Part shown: in pieces, positions 1,315 to 11,231 of the stretch
Layout: each line of letters opens with the position of its first letter
Numbering within the stretch: the stretch's first letter is position 1
From: Mycobacterium paraense
GTDB lineage: Bacteria > Actinomycetota > Actinomycetes > Mycobacteriales > Mycobacteriaceae
Direction of reading: 5' to 3'
NCBI RefSeq assembly: GCF_002101815.1
Contig: NZ_LQPM01000008.1
Coordinates: 1 to 64,000 of the forward strand
DNA length: 64,000 nucleotides
Position numbers and translations under genes: made by a program
Notes under the pieces: generated by a model
The model's database searches: none
What the model was told of the DNA's origin: nothing
Seen by the model: the letters and a program-made list of their open reading frames with translations, nothing else

Positions 1315-2894
1315 CCGGGTTCGCCTCCCAAGAGGGGGTGGTCGCCACCGCGGCGCGGGCGCTGCTGCGGTCCGGACTGCTGGGCCCGCCCTCCCCGGCC
1401 GCGGTGGTACGGGTGATCCGCGAGGCGCGGCGCGGCGGCACGAATCCCTACACGCTGTTGGGCGTCACGGCGGCTCGGTGGCCAGACCGGGCGGCCATCG
1501 TCGACGACGACGGCGCCCTGACCTATCGGGAGCTGCGCTCGCAAGCCGAAGCGCTCGCCCGGGTGCTCTCCGACGGCGGCGAGGGACCCGGCCGGGCGGT
1601 CGGGGTCATGTGCCGCAACGGGCGGGGGTTCGTCAAGGCGTTCTTCGCGATAGCCCTCGTCGGCGCCGACGTCGTGCTGGTGAATACGGACTTCCGCACC
1701 GATGCGCTCGCCGCCGCGCTGAGCAGCCACCGGATCACCACGATCGTCGCCGACGACGAGTTCGCCGAGCGGGCGCGCGCCGCCCAGGGATCGGTCACCC
1801 TGCTCGATCCGGCCACGGTCGAGACGGGCGACGAGCGACCGCGGCCCCCGGTCGCCGCCCCGGGCCGGATCGTACTGCTCACGTCGGGCACCACAGGCAA
1901 GCCCAAGGGCGTGCCCCGCACCCCGCAGCTGCGTTCGGCAGTGGGCGTCTGGGTCACGATCCTCGACCGCACCGGGCTGCGAACCGGCTCGCGAATCTCG
2001 GTGGCGATGCCCATGTTTCACGGGCTGGGCCTCGGCATGCTCATGCTGACGGTGGCCCTGGGCGGGACCGTGCTGACGAATCGCCACTTCGACGCCGAGG
2101 CCGCGCTGGCGCAGGCGTCGCTGCACCGCGCCGACGCGTTCACCGCGGTGCCGGTGGTGTTGGCGCGCATCCTGGACCTGCCGGAGCGGGTTCGGGCGCG
2201 AAACCCGTTGCCCTACCTGCGCGTCGCGCTGTCCAGCGGAGACCGACTGGATCCCACCCTCGGGCAGCGGTTCATGGATGCCTACGGCGACATCCTCTAT
2301 AACGGCTACGGCTCCACCGAAGTCGGCATCGGTGCGTTGGCGACGCCGGCCGACCTGCGGGAGGCCCCCGAGACCGTCGGAAAACCGGTCGCCGGCTGCC
2401 CGGTGCGCATCTTCGACAAAAACGACCGGCCCGTCGGGCCGCGCGTCACCGGACGCATCTTCGTCGGCGGCGAGCTGGCGAGCGAGGGCTACACGGAGGG
2501 CTCGGGAGAGGCCAAGGCCGTCGTCGAGAACATGACCAGCACGGGCGACATGGGCTACTTCGACAACGCCGGACGGCTCTTCATCGTCGGGCGCGAGGAC
2601 GACATGATCATCTCCGGGGGAGAGAACGTCTACCCGCGGGCGGTGGAGAACGCGCTCGCCGAGCACCCCGACGTCGCCGACAACGCGGTCATCGGCGTTG
2701 CCGACGAGCGGTTCGGTCATCGACTGGCCGCGTTCGTGGTCGCGCGGCCGGGACGCAGCCTCGACCCATCGGCGCTGCGGGATTACCTGCAGGGCAGGGT
2801 GTCCCGCTTCGAGCAGCCCCGCGACATCAACATCGTCGACACCATCCCGCGCAACCCGGCCGGCAAGGTGGTGCGCAAGGAGCTATCGACCTGA
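1311..2894 (+). CDS. Acyl-CoA synthetase / AMP-dependent ligase (FadD type)
   Basis: A 527-residue ANL-superfamily enzyme that activates a carboxylic acid with ATP and loads it onto CoA. Visible motifs are the P-loop LLTSGTTGKPKGV, the adenine motif YNGYGSTEVG, the hinge-region TGDMGYFD and the C-terminal catalytic Lys in PAGKVVRKEL. GTG 1311 is chosen because it overlaps the SDR stop by 4 bases and gives a normal family length. Longer in-frame extensions upstream run through the SDR gene and are not real. It converges on ctpI with a 12-base overlap of the 3' ends. Chain-length preference cannot be read from sequence. Confidence 0.9.
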   Translation: MTGFASQEGVVATAARALLRSGLLGPPSPAAVVRVIREARRGGTNPYTLLGVTAARWPDRAAIVDDDGALTYRELRSQAEALARVLSDGGEGPGRAVGVMCRNGRGFVKAFFAIALVGADVVLVNTDFRTDALAAALSSHRITTIVADDEFAERARAAQGSVTLLDPATVETGDERPRPPVAAPGRIVLLTSGTTGKPKGVPRTPQLRSAVGVWVTILDRTGLRTGSRISVAMPMFHGLGLGMLMLTVALGGTVLTNRHFDAEAALAQASLHRADAFTAVPVVLARILDLPERVRARNPLPYLRVALSSGDRLDPTLGQRFMDAYGDILYNGYGSTEVGIGALATPADLREAPETVGKPVAGCPVRIFDKNDRPVGPRVTGRIFVGGELASEGYTEGSGEAKAVVENMTSTGDMGYFDNAGRLFIVGREDDMIISGGENVYPRAVENALAEHPDVADNAVIGVADERFGHRLAAFVVARPGRSLDPSALRDYLQGRVSRFEQPRDINIVDTIPRNPAGKVVRKELST

Positions 2895-5800
2895 GCCCGC
2901 CCACGCCTCGAGCTGCTTGGGTTCGAGCGCGGCGACCCGCTTGGCCAGCCAATTGGGCGCCAGCACCGACACCGCGGTGGTGCCGGCCGTCGCGCCGATC
3001 ACGCCGGACCAGGCGACGGGGCCCAGCGGAGTGCAGCCGAAGAACTGGCTGACGCCGGGGGTCTGCACGATGGCGACCAGGACGCCGGCGCTGCCCAGCG
3101 CCGTGGCGATGACCAGCGGGCTGTGGCGCCGCGTCAGCAGGGTCTGCGCGAGCTGCGTGGTGACCAGCGCGGTGAGACCCATTGTCGCCGTGCGGCGTTC
3201 GGTGCCCGGGGTCCAACGGCCGATGGCCCAGGCGGCCGTCGCTCCGGCGGCGGTGACGGCGCCGCGGGTGACGATCTGGCGCATGAGGGGCGCGTCGAGG
3301 GACGGCGAGGGTTCGGACAGCGCCGCGAGCTGGAAGGCGCGCTGCAATTCCTCGGCGTCGCGGTCCGCGAGCTCCTCGTCCTCCTCGGGCTGCGGGTACT
3401 GCGGGGTAACGGCGACCGCGAGCGCGGGAAACATGTCGGTGAGCAGGTTCACCAACAGCAGCTGGCGCGTGCCCACCGGTGCGCGACCGGTCCCCAGCGC
3501 GGTGCCGATGATGGTGAAGAGCACCTCCCCCACGTTGCCGCCGACCAGAATGCTGACGGCATCCTTCACGCCGCCCCACATCCCGCGGCCCTCGACCAGC
3601 GCGTCGATCAGCACGCCGAGGTCGTTGTCGGTCAAGACGATATCGGCGGCGCCCCGCGCGGCCGACGAACCGCGACCGCTCACGCCGATGCCCACGTCGG
3701 CCATCCGGATCGCGGCGGCATCGTTGGCCCCGTCGCCGACCATCGCGACCGCCTGCCCGCTGTGCTGCAGCGCCGCGACGATCTGCACCTTCTGCTCCGG
3801 GCTGACCCGCGCGAAGACCTGGACGTCGGCGGCGAGCTTGGCCCGGGCGTCCTCGTCGAGGGCGGTGAGCTCGGCGCCGGTGATCTCGCGCGCGTCCGAC
3901 GGCAGGCCGAGCTGGCGGGCGATCGCGCGGGCCGTCACCGGGTGGTCGCCGGTGATCAGCACCACCCGGCGACCGGCGTCGACCAGGGTCTCGATCAGGG
4001 GTCGCGCCGACGCCCGCGCGGTGTCCGCCAGGCCGACGTAGCCGACCAGTTCCAAGTCGTGCGCGGCGGCGTCGACGTTGTCGGCGTCGGTGTCCTCCTC
4101 GGTGGTCCCGCCGTCCCAGCGGCGCTGCGCCACGGCCAGCACCCGCAGGCCCTGTTCGGCCAGGCGCGTCACCAACGACTCCGCGTGGTCCTGGTCGGCG
4201 TCCGCATCGGCGAACCGGCAGCGCGGCAAGATCTGCTCGGGTGCCCCCTTGACCATCAACATCGGTCCCGCCGAGTTCGCGCTGCCGATCGAGGCGGAGT
4301 AGCCGCGGCTGGATTCGAACGGCACCTCCGCGAGGACCGTCCATTCCGGATCGCCGTGTCCGTCACGGGAATTGGCGGCCGTCAGGATGGCCTCGTCGGT
4401 GGCGTGCGCGTGGCCCTGCCCGTTGTGCGGCTGGGTGCACGCCCTCGCGGCGACGCGCAGCACCTCGGCGGCCTGTGGGTCGTCGGCCTCGGGCAGCGGG
4501 CCCCGCACGCTGGTCCCGCGCGGCACCGCGGAAACGACGCGCAGGTGGTTCTCGGTGAGCGTCCCTGTCTTGTCGAAACACACCGTCTGGACCCGGCCGA
4601 GCGCCTCGATGGCGCGCGGCGTGCGGACCAGCGCCCCGCGCCGTGACAACCGCTGGGCCGCCGCCAGCTGCGCCAGGGTGGCCACCAACGGCAGGCCCTC
4701 GGGAACGGCGGCCACGGCGATGGCGACGCCGTCGGCGACCGCTTGCCGCAGCGACCCGCGGTGCGCCAGCGCCAGCCCGGTGACCGCGGCGCCGCCGGCC
4801 AGGGTCAGCGGAAGCACCTTGCTGGTCAGTTCCCGCAACCGGGCCTGGACGCCCGCGGCCGACTCGACATCGGCGATCGCCGTCAGCGCCCGCTGCGCGG
4901 CGGTGCCGGCCCCGGTGGCGACGACGATCGCCCGGGCGCGCCCGGCGACGATGGTGCTGCCCTCGAACAGCATGCTGGCCCGGTCGGAGTCGGCGGCGGC
5001 GACGGGCTCGACCTGCTTGTCGACCGGCAGCGACTCGCCCGTGAGGAAGGACTCGTCGACCTCGAGGTCCTCGGCCACCAGCAGTCGTGCGTCCGCCGGG
5101 ACCACTTCCGGCGCGGCGAGGTCAATGATTTCGCCCGGGCGCAGCGATTTCGCGCTCACCGTGACGGTTCGCTCGGTCGTGCGCGCCGCCTCGAGCCGGC
5201 GGTGCGCCGTCGCCACGGTGGGCAGCACGACGCGGCGCGCGTGCTTTTCCTGCTCGGCGAACAGCTCGGCCACCGCGGCCTCGGCGCGCAACCGCTGCAC
5301 CCCGCCGGCGATGGCGTTGGCGGTCATCACGCCGGCCACCAGCAGCGCGTCGACATTGCTGCCGACGATGGCCGACGCCGCCGCCCCCACGGCCAGGATC
5401 GGCGTCAGCGGATCGGCGAGCTCGGCCCGCGTCGCCGACAGCAGCCGCCCGACCCGGGCCGCCGGACCCCGCAGCGGCGAGATGACCGGGTTGTAGGACA
5501 GGTCGTCGAGGACCTGGCGCCAGGGCGCGATTCCGGGTTCGACGGCGAGCGGTCGGGTGCGGCTGGTCAGCCGGGAGTAGACGATCTCGGGGTCCAGGGC
5601 ATGCCAGGCGGTCAGCGGCTGCGGCGTCGGATCGGCCAGCCGCAACACCCTGCTGGCCGAGAAGGTCCCCTGGATCAGCGCGGCCGCGGCCGCGGCATTG
5701 ACCGGGTTGAGCCAGCGCTGCAGGGCGAGCGGATTGGCCGAGCCGGGATCACCGGTCACCAGCAGCAGGCCGGCCAGGGTGCTGCCGCCCTTGGCGAGGC

Positions 5801-7724
5801 GCACCGCGGATTCCGTCGCCTCCCGGGCCACCGGCAGCGCCGACAAGATCCGCACCGCCGCCGCCAGATCGGTGCCGGTGATGATGTCCGCGGTCCACGG
5901 CGTCGCCGCCTGCGGATCGTCGAGGGCCACCCCGACGTCGGCGATGGCCAGCGCCGCCAGCGTGTCCGTCGACGCGAAGTCCCGGTGCAGCGCGGTGATC
6001 AGCAGCACCGGCCCGCGGTCCGTGCGCAGGTCGCGCACCAGCTGCAGCAACGGGGTTCCCGGCGGGTGACTCACCGCGACGCTGGCGGTCAGGTCTTCGG
6101 TGCCGGCGACGTGGCGCAGCACCACCCGCGCCCCCGTCCGGGCGGCGGTCTGCAGCAGCGGGATGGCGAACGGGTCGACCTCCCACCCCACGTCGACGCT
6201 GCCGACGCGTTCGCCGTCGACCACCAGGTCGGCGTGCTCGAGCCCCTGCGCGGGCGTCGCCGCCGGGTCCTGCGCGCGGACCCAGCGCAGGCGCGCCCCG
6301 GTGGCCGGCAGCTCGTCGGGGTCCGGCTCGGGCGCCTCCTCGCCGTGCAGCAGCGCGTCCGCGACCTCGTACACCCGGTCCTCGTCCCAGCCCGGGATGT
6401 CGCCCTGCGCCCGCAACACCGCGCGGTTGTCGCCCCGCAGCGCCGCCCCGTCGATGACGACCACCTTCACGCGATCCATCCGGCGCAACGCGCCGGGGTC
6501 GAGGACGAGTTGCCCGGCGTTGGCCAGCCCGCGGCCCAGCACCGCGGCGAACGCCTGCCGGCCCGCGTGGGCGGCTCGCGGCACGCCGGCCAGCAGCGCG
6601 CCGGCCGCGTCCTCGGTGCCGCCGCCGGCCAGCAGCGCGCCGGCCGCGGCGATCAACGAGGCGTTCGCCGCCTGATCGACGTACTCCTCCACCGGCCCGG
6701 CCATCGATCCCTTCGCGGTGTCGATGGCCGCGTCGATGGCGCCGCCGACCACGACGTGGGAAACCTCACCGGCCGCGGCGGCGGCCCAATTGTGCCGGGG
6801 CGCCTGCGTTTTGGGTCCCGCCGAGGAGATGACCGGAACCACCGGGGCTTGCGGCCGCTTCGGGGAGGCCAGCTCGGGCTCGCGCTCGCGCCAGCGCTGC
6901 CGGTGCGCCGACGCCTCGGAGATCTGCAGGCTGCGTTGCGCCAGATCGATCAGGGGCGTCCCCACGGCGTGGGTCAGCCCGTTGGCCAGCGCCGTCGAGG
7001 CGCTCAGCGCGATGTCGGTGCCGACGCGACCCAGCCGCGATTCCAGCACGGCCACCACCCGCGGCTGATGGTTGAGCAGGGCGGCCGCGGCGCGCGCGCT
7101 GCGCGGCGCGACGGGCAACCGGCCGAGCCAGCCGGTGACCGCCGCACCGATCGCCGCGACGTCCATCGCGGCCGCGGTCATCGGGACCAGGATCGCCAGC
7201 GGGTTGCCCGGGTCGGCGAACGGCGCGGTCCGGGGTGCCGACTTCGGACCCGTCAGATTCAGATCGGCGGCGACGTGACACACCGTGTCCTGCACCTCGT
7301 CGAGCACCGCGTCGCTGTCGGTCTCGCTTTCGAGTTCGACCACGAGCCGGCCGAGCGCGCCCTCGATGTGGGCGGCGGCCACTCCGGGAATCCGGCGAAC
7401 CGGCTCCTCCACCACCGCCGCGTGTTCGTGCCAGCGGGGGAAAGGCAGCAGCGGATCGAGGTCGAAATGCACCCGCCGCCCGCTTCGCCAGCGCACCGGC
7501 GGGGTGACGTCGCGGGAGCCGTCGGATTCGGAGCCGACGCCGATTGCCCGGCCCGTCGTGTGGGCCATCGACTGAACCACCGGGCCGGCCAGTTCCACCA
7601 CCGGGCTGGCCAGCATCTGCACCGCCCCCGCGGCACCGGCCGCGGTGGAGACGCCGGCCCGCACCACCTGCGCGGCCCCGCCGGTCACACCAGCGACGAC
7701 GCTGGCCACGCCCGGAATCTTCAC
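2883..7724 (-). CDS. ctpI: P-type cation-transporting ATPase CtpI
   Basis: A giant P-type ATPase of about 1613 residues, matching the length of M. tuberculosis CtpI (Rv0107c, about 1632). The first 600-700 residues are a long extension with no obvious motif. The catalytic core follows: TGES actuator loop near residue 900, the phosphorylated Asp in CFDKTGTLT near 1050, a KGAPEQ nucleotide-domain motif, and MVGDGANDAAA near 1330, then C-terminal membrane segments. The transported ion is not established for the family. A GTG at 7739 is also possible, but GTG 7724 has an AAGG ribosome site about 8 bases upstream, so I chose it. No linked regulator is visible. Confidence 0.93.
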   Translation of the reverse strand: MKIPGVASVVAGVTGGAAQVVRAGVSTAAGAAGAVQMLASPVVELAGPVVQSMAHTTGRAIGVGSESDGSRDVTPPVRWRSGRRVHFDLDPLLPFPRWHEHAAVVEEPVRRIPGVAAAHIEGALGRLVVELESETDSDAVLDEVQDTVCHVAADLNLTGPKSAPRTAPFADPGNPLAILVPMTAAAMDVAAIGAAVTGWLGRLPVAPRSARAAAALLNHQPRVVAVLESRLGRVGTDIALSASTALANGLTHAVGTPLIDLAQRSLQISEASAHRQRWREREPELASPKRPQAPVVPVISSAGPKTQAPRHNWAAAAAGEVSHVVVGGAIDAAIDTAKGSMAGPVEEYVDQAANASLIAAAGALLAGGGTEDAAGALLAGVPRAAHAGRQAFAAVLGRGLANAGQLVLDPGALRRMDRVKVVVIDGAALRGDNRAVLRAQGDIPGWDEDRVYEVADALLHGEEAPEPDPDELPATGARLRWVRAQDPAATPAQGLEHADLVVDGERVGSVDVGWEVDPFAIPLLQTAARTGARVVLRHVAGTEDLTASVAVSHPPGTPLLQLVRDLRTDRGPVLLITALHRDFASTDTLAALAIADVGVALDDPQAATPWTADIITGTDLAAAVRILSALPVAREATESAVRLAKGGSTLAGLLLVTGDPGSANPLALQRWLNPVNAAAAAALIQGTFSASRVLRLADPTPQPLTAWHALDPEIVYSRLTSRTRPLAVEPGIAPWRQVLDDLSYNPVISPLRGPAARVGRLLSATRAELADPLTPILAVGAAASAIVGSNVDALLVAGVMTANAIAGGVQRLRAEAAVAELFAEQEKHARRVVLPTVATAHRRLEAARTTERTVTVSAKSLRPGEIIDLAAPEVVPADARLLVAEDLEVDESFLTGESLPVDKQVEPVAAADSDRASMLFEGSTIVAGRARAIVVATGAGTAAQRALTAIADVESAAGVQARLRELTSKVLPLTLAGGAAVTGLALAHRGSLRQAVADGVAIAVAAVPEGLPLVATLAQLAAAQRLSRRGALVRTPRAIEALGRVQTVCFDKTGTLTENHLRVVSAVPRGTSVRGPLPEADDPQAAEVLRVAARACTQPHNGQGHAHATDEAILTAANSRDGHGDPEWTVLAEVPFESSRGYSASIGSANSAGPMLMVKGAPEQILPRCRFADADADQDHAESLVTRLAEQGLRVLAVAQRRWDGGTTEEDTDADNVDAAAHDLELVGYVGLADTARASARPLIETLVDAGRRVVLITGDHPVTARAIARQLGLPSDAREITGAELTALDEDARAKLAADVQVFARVSPEQKVQIVAALQHSGQAVAMVGDGANDAAAIRMADVGIGVSGRGSSAARGAADIVLTDNDLGVLIDALVEGRGMWGGVKDAVSILVGGNVGEVLFTIIGTALGTGRAPVGTRQLLLVNLLTDMFPALAVAVTPQYPQPEEDEELADRDAEELQRAFQLAALSEPSPSLDAPLMRQIVTRGAVTAAGATAAWAIGRWTPGTERRTATMGLTALVTTQLAQTLLTRRHSPLVIATALGSAGVLVAIVQTPGVSQFFGCTPLGPVAWSGVIGATAGTTAVSVLAPNWLAKRVAALEPKQLEAWAGSGR

Positions 7725-8322
7725 TCCGTCACCCTTCACCTACGTCTACCGCGCCTAATGATCCTGGCGCGTCACGGGCCTGTCCACAGCTGGGCTGCGT
7801 GGACGGCGCTCGATGACGCCGACGAGTGCGGCGCGTCATGATTCGCTCGGTTACCAGGGGGTGCAAATCGCTTCCTCGCAGAGAGGTTACCGGCTTGGAG
7901 CCCGGCCAAACCTGGCAGAACGATCGGGCCTCGAGAGGCGCCGGAGCGGTGCGACGGCGGACCGGCGTCGAGCCGGTCCGCAGCAACGACGGACTTCGCC
8001 TGCGACAATCGCACCGATCCCTCCATCGCCGCCTGAGCTCCCGACCGCTCGCGGCCGGATTCTGTTGGCGGAGGCGCTATTTCGAGCACGCGCCAACGGC
8101 GCATCGACGGCCCGGCCGAGCTGCGTTGGGGCGGAATCAATTAGCGCGCGCTCGCGGCGCCGGCCATTGCGATCAGCCTGATTCACAACGCTGTTTTGCG
8201 CGCGGTCGATCGATACCATCGGACCGTCGAAAGCCTGCCTCCAGCTAACCCGGCCGCGAAAGCGCGTTAGTCAGCGGTGATCGGCGACTTCTACGAGCCC
8301 GGTGATGGAGATGGAGGCGGCG
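7725..8322. other. Long divergent intergenic region (ctpI / sulfate-binding protein)
   Basis: About 600 bases without a convincing gene. Reading frames of 60-140 codons on both strands are Arg/Pro-rich, lack ribosome sites and look like high-GC noise. The region contains a nested inverted-repeat structure at 7947-8016 (listed separately) and must hold the promoters of both flanking genes. No match to a known riboswitch consensus was recognised. Confidence 0.5.
7947..8016. other. Candidate structured RNA element (nested inverted repeats)
   Basis: An outer 8-bp stem (CGGTGCGA at 7947-7954 with TCGCACCG at 8009-8016) encloses a perfect 10-bp hairpin (GCGGACCGGC at 7957-7966, loop GTCGA, GCCGGTCCGC at 7972-7981). 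About 27 unpaired or weakly paired bases remain. It could fold in a transcript from either strand: about 220 bases before ctpI, or about 300 before the sulfate operon. High GC makes chance pairing common, so this is only a candidate. Confidence 0.3.
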
Positions 8323-9438
8323 ATGACAGAGCCCCGGCAGGCGGCGGCGCCTCGGCGCAAACTGCGATTCCGCGTTCCCTGGCTCAACATCGTCGGTGTC
8401 CTCGCCATCGTCCTCGCGGCGGGCCTCATCACGGTGAAGAACCTGCAGGGCCACGCGTCGCCGAACCAGATTCTCAATGTCTCCTATGACCCCACCCGGG
8501 AGCTCTACGCGGCGCTCGACAAGTCCTTCGTCGAGCAGTTCCGCCGGCAGACGGGCGTCACGGTGGAAATCAAGCAATCGCACGGCGGTTCGGGGCGGCA
8601 GGCCGGCGACGTCATCGAGGGCAAGCAGAAGGCCAGCGTGGTCTCGCTCGCGTTGGTCAGTGACGTCGACGCGCTGCGCAAGCGCGGCCTGATCGCCCCC
8701 GACTGGCAGAAGCGCCTGCCGAACAACTCGATCCCCTACACGTCGACCATCGTCTTCGTCGTCCATCGGGGAAACCCGAAGGCAATCCACGACTGGCCAG
8801 ACCTGGTCAAGGACGGCGTCGCGATCGTGTCGCCCAACCCGCGCACGTCGGGCAACGGCAAGTTGAGCATCCTGGCGGCCTGGGGTTCGGTGACCACGCG
8901 CGGCGGCACCGAGGCCCAAGCGTCCGACTTCGTCAGGTCCCTGGTGCACCACGTCGCCGTCGCCGACTCCGGCGCGCGCGGCGCCGCCATCAGCTTCGCC
9001 GTCGAGAAAATCGGCGACGTCCATCTGACGTGGGAGAACGAAGCCCTGCGCGAGGTCGCCGAAAACCGGGACGAACTCGAGATCGTCTACCCGCCGATCA
9101 GCATCCGGGCCGAACCGGCCGTCGCCTGGGTCGACGCCAACGTCACCGACAAGCGGACCGCGTCCTACGCCAAGGCGTACCTGGAATACCTCTACAGCGA
9201 TGCGGCGCAGGAGACCATCGCCCAGCTGGGCTACCGGCCGGTGAAACCGGAGATCCTGGCCAGGCACGCCGACAAATTGCCCGACATCAAGCTCTTCCCG
9301 ATCGGCGCGATCGCCGGCGACTGGAACGACGCGCGCCAAAAGTTCTTCGGCGACAACGGCATCTACGACACGGTCTCGGGACCGGCCCAGGCCAGGGCCG
9401 TGTCGGCACACTCGCGGCGAAAGGCCAAGCGGCCATGA
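8323..9438 (+). CDS. Sulfate/thiosulfate-type substrate-binding protein, membrane-anchored
   Basis: A 371-residue periplasmic-binding-type protein of the Sbp/CysP sulfate family. Supporting features are [20 protein letters not shown] near the start of the mature domain, [14 protein letters not shown], the [10 protein letters not shown] anion-binding loop, AWGS, and GYRPVKPE near the C-terminus. The N-terminus has a basic stretch and one hydrophobic segment (about residues 22-40) but no lipobox, so it is probably anchored by an uncleaved helix or secreted. ATG 8323 has GGAGG at ideal spacing. Its stop overlaps the next gene (ATGA). That partner is a SulP transporter, not an ABC permease, which is unusual for this family. 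Confidence 0.88.
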
Positions 9439-11231
9439 GCGTTTCGGCGGTCCTGCAGGGTCTGAACTACGACACGACCAAGGCGCGCCGCGACGTCGTC
9501 GCCGGGCTCACCGTCGCGGCCGTCTCGCTGCCACAGAGCATCACCTACGCGCTGGTCGCCGGCGTCGATCCCAAATTCGGCGTGTACTCCGCGATCGTGG
9601 TGACCTTCGTCGCCGCGATCTTCGGGTCGTCCTCGCATCTCATCAACGGACCGACGAGCGCGATATCGCTTCTGGTGTTCAGTTCCCTGGCGTTTCTGGA
9701 TCCTGAGAACCGCACCGTTCTCTTCGACGCGCTGTTTTTGCTCGGGGTGCTCGTCGGTGCGTTCCAGATCCTCATCGCCGTGTTCAAGCTGGGCGACCTG
9801 ACCCGATACATCTCGGAATCGGTGATCATCGGATTCCTGGTGGCCGCCGCGCTCTTGATCGCGCTCGGTCAGCTGGGTAACGCGCTCGGCGTCAAGGACA
9901 AGGGCACCGGGCGGATGCCGGTGCTGAAACGCACCTACCTCACCCTGTTCGAGGGCGACGCCGTCAACTACCGCGCGCTGGTCCTCACCGTCACGACCGT
10001 GGCGTTGGCGGTCGGCCTGCGCTGGCTGGTCAAGCGGTACGGGCTCCCACAGCTGGACCTGCTGGCGGTGCTCATCATCGCGGCCGTCATCGCCTACGTG
10101 GCCGGGTGGTCCACCGCCAACAGTGGCGGCAACACGGCGGTCGCCCTCACCGCGAAAATCCCGCAAAGCCTGCCCACGCCGCACATTCCGGACGTCCAGC
10201 TCGGCGTGCTGGGCCAGCTGTCGGAAGGCGCGCTGGCGATCGCCTTCATCGGCCTGATCGAGGCGCTGTCGATCGCCAAGGCCATCGCCCACCAGAGCGG
10301 GCAGCGGATCGACTACAACCGGCAGATCCTCGCCGAGGGGCTGGCGAACCTGACCGGCGGCTTCTTCCAGTCGGTGCCGGGGTCGGGTTCGATGTCGCGC
10401 TCGCCGATCAACTTCCAGGCGGGCGCGGCCTCGCGGTTCTCCGGGGTGGTCGCTTCGGCCGGCGTCGCCGTGGTGGTGTTGCTGTTCGCGCCGCTGTTGC
10501 ACTACATGCCGAAGGCCGCGCTGGCGGGCCTGCTGCTCATCACCGCCGCGCGCCTCATCGACTACAAGCGGCTGTTCTACATGCTGAAGGCGTCACGCTA
10601 CGACGCGGGGCTGGTGGTCGTCACGGCGCTGACCGGCGTGCTGGTCGATTTGGACACGGCCGTGCTGCTCGGTGTCGCGTTGTCCATCCTGCTGTTCGTG
10701 CCGCGCGCGGCGAAGCTCAAGGCCAAGGAGTTGATCGTCACGCCCGAACGGGTGGTCCGCGAGCGCGTGGCCGGTGACCCGGTGGACCCGTCGACGATCA
10801 TCTACGACCTCGAAGGCGAGCTATTCTTCGGCGCCGCACCGGAACTCGACCGCTACCTGGATGCGCTGCGCGACCGCGTCAAACGCGACGGCATCAGCTT
10901 CGTGGTGCTGCGGCTCAAGCGGGTGCGCCATCCCGACGCCGTCGTGGTCGAGCGGATCGAGCAGTTCCTGCGCGAGGAAACCGCGCGCGGCGTAACGGTT
11001 CTGCTGGCGGGCGTGCAACCCGACATGTGGACCGTGCTCAAGAACGTCGGCCTGGAGAAATGGTTCTCGGGCGAGCACGTCTTCCCCGAGGAGGACGAGG
11101 AGTTCTCGGCGACGCTGAAGGCCGTCCGCTACGCCCACGCCCAACTCGGCATCGACGAACCGCGCGAGCCGCTGCCGGCTGCCGCGGTTACGGGCAACGG
11201 GGATCGGCAGCGGTACTACTACCTCGTTTGA
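9435..11231 (+). CDS. SulP-family anion transporter with C-terminal STAS domain
   Basis: A 598-residue secondary transporter of the SLC26/SulP family (sulfate, bicarbonate or related anions). The N-terminal signature [17 protein letters not shown] and the [11 protein letters not shown] motif are clear, with about ten to fourteen membrane segments up to about residue 430. A cytoplasmic STAS domain follows (from about residue 455: [17 protein letters not shown], later [13 protein letters not shown]). Translation is coupled to the binding-protein gene by a 4-base overlap, which suggests a sulfate-uptake pair. Direct cooperation of a binding protein with a SulP carrier is an inference. Confidence 0.92.

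Follow-up and report, generated by a model that had tools for sequence, protein, structure and literature searches.

A membrane-tethered sulfate-binding protein paired with a SulP carrier points to a probable binding-protein-assisted H+/sulfate symporter in mycobacteria and other bacteria

Introduction

The SulT ABC importer (TC 3.A.1.6) joins a binding protein of the Sbp, CysP or SubI kind to CysT, CysW and CysA, and solitary SulP/SLC26 carriers, such as AtSULTR4;1, BicA, DauA and the SulPs of mycobacteria, combine a Sulfate_transp domain with a STAS domain. Binding proteins (SBPs) also serve secondary transporters: before 2025 the use of a soluble SBP was known, among secondary transporters, for TRAP and TT alone (PMC12344293), and these TRAP and TTT systems have DctQM or TctAB membrane parts and SBPs of other families, carry mostly organic acids and have no STAS domain (PMC5812351). 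In 2025 TAXI-GltS of Bordetella pertussis was proposed as a new class from evidence similar to that presented here, together with ligand binding and gene fusions (PMC12344293); its SBP, a glutamate-binding TAXI lipoprotein, shows translational coupling with the Na+/glutamate carrier GltS and is proposed to feed it, GltS being a one-gene elevator-type carrier of a kind which usually works alone. The same paper asks whether the elevator mechanism permits SBP use, which further classes would test (PMC12344293), and it cites a TAXI-TRAP system with a membrane-anchored SBP (Roden et al. 2023, as cited in PMC12344293), a precedent for an SBP held at the membrane.

Here we describe a mycobacterial locus in which an Sbp-type protein is paired with a SulP carrier, for which we found no description in the open-access literature, nor one of any SLC26 protein with a binding protein. 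The pair resembles SulT in having an Sbp homologue with the ligand positions of that family; unlike SulT, its locus has a SulP in place of CysT/W/A, and a predicted uncleaved anchor replaces the lipobox or cleaved signal peptide. It resembles TAXI-GltS in the translational coupling of an SBP to a single elevator-type carrier, but the TAXI protein and GltS are both unrelated to Sbp or SulP.

Results

The locus

The window, a stretch of 64,000 nucleotides from the 5.62 Mb genome of Mycobacterium paraense (GCF_002101815.1, contig NZ_LQPM01000008.1), carries the two genes on the plus strand:

8313 to 8317, plus strand, GGAGG Shine-Dalgarno-like sequence 5 nt ahead of the ATG, read from the sequence
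8323 to 9438, plus strand, sbp-type sulfate-binding protein gene, 371 aa, from ATG at 8323 to TGA at 9438
9435 to 9438, plus strand, ATGA stop/start overlap from sbp to the SulP gene (putative translational coupling), read from the sequence
9435 to 11231, plus strand, SulP/SLC26 carrier gene, 598 aa, starting inside the ATGA overlap

The start codons are supported by near relatives (L052, L053, L045 and L055), in which start and length are conserved. The nearest relatives at the locus, in Mycobacterium interjectum and M. terramassiliense, have an Sbp 94% identical to that of the window. The 4-base overlap recurs in many of the other pair loci. The preliminary description had read the locus as an Sbp-type gene joined by an ATGA overlap to a SulP/STAS gene, and both gene identities and the overlap are borne out: Sbp passes both NCBIfam sulfate-binding protein models (NF008022, 346 bits against a cut-off of 288; TIGR00971, 339.7 bits against 155.5), and the downstream product matches both Sulfate_transp (PF00916, 268.7 bits) and STAS (PF01740, 47.5 bits). 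These two domains were all that the Pfam search gave for the carrier, Sbp itself falls in the SBP_bac_11/Sbp families, and DctQM- or TctAB-type components are absent from the locus. Just upstream and divergent from the pair lies a very long P-type ATPase-like open-reading frame (1618 aa, 2883-7739, minus strand). An Rfam search for a riboswitch or RNA leader in 11 non-mycobacterial pair loci returned only tRNAs and one Acido-Lenti-1.

The binding protein

The product of sbp divides into three parts:

8380 to 8445, plus strand, predicted uncleaved N-terminal membrane anchor, residues 20-41, with an Arg/Lys-rich cytoplasmic side before it and K39-N40 at its end; a modelled helix of low pLDDT
8446 to 8475, plus strand, tether, residues 42-51, linking the anchor to the binding domain, which starts with NVSYDPTRE; nearly constant in length across phyla
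8467 to 9378, plus strand, binding domain, residues 49-352, with D56, S90, S176, G177, N178, A218 and W237 at 1SBP sulfate-ligand positions

Its best solved relative is Salmonella Sbp (1SBP, 3e-88), with mycobacterial SubI far weaker (6e-35), and in a fold search the AlphaFold2 model of Sbp matched 1SBP better than any other PDB structure (TM-score 0.88 over the target, 49% identical). The sulfate ligand positions of 1SBP, which we take to be D11, S45, S130, G131, A173 and W192, are retained in 72-73 of 73 SulP-paired Sbps.

The N-terminus has no lipobox and a predicted helix stands there instead (residues 21-41 in a low-confidence model), as had been read earlier. This arrangement is general: all 73 SulP-paired Sbps examined have a hydrophobic membrane helix at the N-terminus and then a tether of almost fixed length (10-12 residues), the helix ending in a (K/H/G/A/R)-(N/S) motif 10-12 residues ahead of NVSYDPTRE with Asn in 72/73. 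Related Sbps adjacent to cysTWA mostly have a lipobox or a signal-peptidase-like site and are without the 10-12 residue spacing; L116 departs from this rule, being linked to cysTWA yet having an N-terminal helix that resembles the anchor and lacking an evident lipobox. Most of the host phyla are Gram-negative, and in such bacteria ABC importers usually work with a soluble binding protein; an anchor that is conserved, with a tether nearly constant in length, therefore points to a membrane partner.

The carrier

The SulP product contains the following features:

9474 to 10709, plus strand, transmembrane domain, 14 helices, residues 14-425, with Q34, Y38, E276, S321 and R322 equivalent to Gln112, Tyr116, Glu347, Ser392 and Arg393 of AtSULTR4;1
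9567 to 9569, plus strand, D45 in the TM1-TM2 outer loop, candidate docking residue (suggestive only), Asp in 67/67 paired SulPs and Pro in 4/4 sister SulPs
10716 to 11147, plus strand, STAS domain, about residues 428-571, placed from Pfam and the model

It lies outside the curated TIGR00815 sulP subfamily model (342.2 bits, below the cut-off of 380.45), and AtSULTR4;1 was the first match in a fold search with its model. In AtSULTR4;1 transport depends on Gln112, Tyr116, Ser392 and Arg393, and its driving by H+ on Glu347 (PMC8298490). The equivalents of Gln112, Tyr116, Glu347 and Arg393 are present in all 67 paired SulPs, with Ser or Thr at position 392; solitary SulP paralogues keep Gln112 in 7/51 and Tyr116 in 14/51. 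The retention of this residue set in the paired SulPs favours, by analogy with the plant protein, their being H+/sulfate symporters.

We also looked for a docking site among residues specific to paired SulPs, taking the topology from the SLC26 7+7 repeat and the helices of the model. Four of 11 pair-only residues (Asp45, Asp89, Gly232 and His250) fall in outer loops and may be docking contacts, but the enrichment is not significant (Fisher p = 0.065); a docking site read from them was rejected on that ground, and the result weighs against the reading of the pair as one importer. Beyond the STAS domain, the C-terminal tail holds a YYLV-like motif (window positions 11208-11228) whose Tyr596 is found in 66/67 paired SulPs.

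The same architecture could instead carry a different oxyanion, such as thiosulfate, selenate, molybdate, chromate or another. Sbp comes near the CysP model of NCBIfam (292.9 bits, under its cut-off of 308), Asn replaces Gly at 1SBP position 132, where the contact is through the main chain, residue 134 is Lys or Gln rather than Arg, and no clear residue pattern sets selectivity in SLC26 (PMC8298490). Yet Asn132 occurs alike in relatives beside cysTWA, Sbp retains the direct ligand positions of 1SBP, every residue of the SULTR sulfate-site set is present in SulP and organosulfur genes recur around some pair loci, which makes another oxyanion decidedly improbable and sulfate the preferred ligand.

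Conservation of the pair

The preliminary description had proposed a survey of Sbp-SulP adjacency, with no conserved pairing as the outcome that would count against it; the survey found the pairing conserved. We scanned 84,980 species genomes (GTDB) with Sbp and took the 80 best homologue loci: a SulP lies directly downstream on the same strand in 68, cysT-cysW-cysA stands in its place in seven, and neither is present in five (three of these at contig ends). The SulP-paired loci span six phyla, which excludes chance adjacency, with hosts among mycobacteria, Antrihabitans, Acidobacteriota, Verrucomicrobiota, one Planctomycetota MAG, alpha- and gammaproteobacteria (Rhodopila, Acidisphaera, Methylobacterium, Methylococcaceae) and Cyanobacteriota (Pseudanabaena, Rhizonema). 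Within the family of the window, close Sbp homologues (67-91% identity) occur in 8/301 genomes and all eight have the pair; other Sbp matches in the 301 genomes are SubI-like, at about 1e-46 or weaker. Among 199 Acidobacteriota genomes only one Sbp homologue, that of G311, adjoins a SulP, the 22 others all adjoining cysT/W.

The converse test gave the same association. PF00916 matches in 43 genomes were scored with a profile built from paired SulPs, and the 19 subfamily members found independently in this way, at 934-1054 bits, have an Sbp upstream in 19/19; solitary paralogues in the same genomes reach at most 291 bits, versus >930, and have an Sbp alongside in 0/51. Intermediate sister SulPs (588-730 bits) were found at four loci of Planctomycetota and Binatota (L160, L198, L199 and L149, at least the last of which ends at a contig edge); these have no adjacent Sbp, share most residues of the paired clade and would form a natural Sbp-independent comparison. 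The paired subfamily is rare and patchy in SulP-baited phylum samples: in each of four samples (241-349 genomes, 3-5 candidates scored per genome) it was found in one genome, always that at the centre of the sample.

In none of 73 pairs are Sbp and SulP fused, unlike in TAXI-GltS, where fusions are known, and this counts against the two proteins forming one importer. Plasmid carriage was considered and dropped, as PLSDB held no SulP of the paired kind and its Sbp matches were <60% identical. A pair that shares 70% identity with the mycobacterial one lies on a contig filed as Methylovirgula sp. (L064), through either a binning error or transfer, and one Verrucomicrobiota MAG (G333) has two divergent Sbp-SulP copies (L120 and L122).

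Ancestry and co-inheritance

In a tree built from the binding domains only, with the anchor left out, the SulP-paired Sbps group as a single clade (SH-aLRT 100), which is surrounded by ABC-paired Sbps of Planctomycetota and Binatota, so that their nearest relatives come from SulT-type operons. A Binatota MAG in this survey (L131) has the sbp-cysT-cysW-cysA operon twice in tandem, and its two Sbps share 40% and 53% identity with the query. The paired SulPs likewise form one clade (support 100) beside the solitary sister SulPs, and differ in this, and in always standing by an Sbp, from the solitary SulPs with which they share their domains. The distance matrices of Sbp and SulP correlate at r = 0.95 over 68 pairs (0/2000 permutations as high), or r = 0.93 without the mycobacteria, and 29 well-supported splits are common to both trees. 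The anchor and the SulP partner change together on the Sbp tree, in a single change. Each protein thus forms one clade and the trees agree. The most economical account is a single recruitment of an ABC-type Sbp to a place next to a SulP, after which both would have moved between phyla as a unit.

Such a history also bears on whether the two proteins are separate and merely co-regulated, an anchored Sbp and a SulP in a sulfur-starvation operon, with Sbp concentrating or sensing sulfate and perhaps acting as a gate on SulP or on a signalling protein, and no handover of the ion. Operon conservation and a common ligand type would by themselves produce this pattern, solitary SulPs function without SBPs (which also counts against a joint importer), and some pair loci do sit among sulfur-starvation genes. 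NtaA/DmoA-family monooxygenases scored above cut-off near the pair in 3/3 tested loci (L107, L112 and L113), as did SsuA in the neighbourhood of L112, with weaker SsuE-, SfnB-, TauD- and TauC-like matches in L062, L096 and L106; the neighbours in several pair loci thus point to sulfur starvation. Organosulfur genes were seen near the pair in L062, L107, L112, L113 and L128. Co-regulation, however, would not call for a tether so nearly constant in length or for inheritance strictly one to one across six phyla, and no third gene, signalling genes included, is conserved with the pair in the loci compared; we consider co-regulation without handover unlikely, and prefer a joint transporter.

The ABC importer elsewhere in the genome

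The preliminary description stated that no cysT/W/A genes are present, which holds at the Sbp-SulP locus and fails for the genome, where a complete subI-cysT-cysW-cysA set lies on contig C6 (G000:C6:298822-301300 and onward). CysT/W is also encoded in most pair-bearing genomes, where sulfate therefore has another route besides the pair, and this counts against the reading as one importer. An alternative is that the anchored Sbp feeds a CysTWA importer encoded elsewhere, its adjacency to SulP being incidental, in keeping with the usual role of the Sbp family, with the presence of cysTWA in this very genome and with sbp genes that can stand apart from permease genes (PMC5840216). Against this, pairing with SulP is nearly invariant, the anchor and the SulP partner go together on the tree, and the CysTWA operons of the checked genomes have binding proteins of their own. 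Three pair-bearing genomes (G311, G314 and G324) have no CysT/W over cut-off and the anchored Sbp as their only Sbp-family protein, and G333 has no CysT/W and a fragment of another Sbp besides the pair; all four are MAGs, so the missing CysT/W is not proof of absence. Taken with the other evidence, a role for Sbp in trans is highly improbable, and SulP is the preferred partner.

Discussion

The Sbp-SulP pair is real and conserved, and probably functions as one transporter. Our main reading, to which we give a probability of about 70%, is that the pair specifies a single sulfate importer of high affinity, a tethered, SBP-assisted H+/sulfate symporter. The N-terminal helix and the short tether of near-constant length would fix Sbp to the outside of the membrane, where it would capture sulfate between its two lobes; the loaded protein would then dock on an outward-facing SulP dimer and pass the ion to this elevator-type carrier, which would import it together with protons, Glu276 (Glu347 of AtSULTR4;1) having a coupling role. 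We infer from sequence that sulfate is the substrate, that transport is coupled to H+, that the proteins dock physically and that transport requires Sbp. The preliminary description had suggested a binding-protein-assisted secondary transporter for sulfate or another oxyanion, and this interpretation is supported by the conserved pairing, single origin, co-inheritance, a tether specific to paired Sbps and sulfate-site residues in both proteins, the handover itself being read from these sequence features.

In Sbp-SulP a binding protein is conserved and coupled with a secondary carrier, which is the mark of an SBP-dependent secondary transporter. The best reading, by analogy, is that it would work like TRAP, TTT and TAXI-GltS while sharing no component with them. 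We regard as evenly poised the broader claim that an SLC26/SulP elevator obligately fed sulfate by a membrane-tethered Sbp represents a further class of binding-protein-dependent secondary transport, which would have arisen once from an ABC binding protein and a solitary SulP and spread horizontally as a unit. The system is simple, with two genes; its ligand is well studied, and both parts have relatives whose structures are characterised. Our results suggest that at least six bacterial phyla contain a sulfate scavenging system that had not been recognised before, made of two parts and probably driven by protons. If this is true, it would provide an SBP-assisted example of the SLC26 fold, to whose family prestin, pendrin and the plant SULTRs belong, and some non-tuberculous mycobacteria would have a distinct route for sulfate beside SubI-CysTWA.
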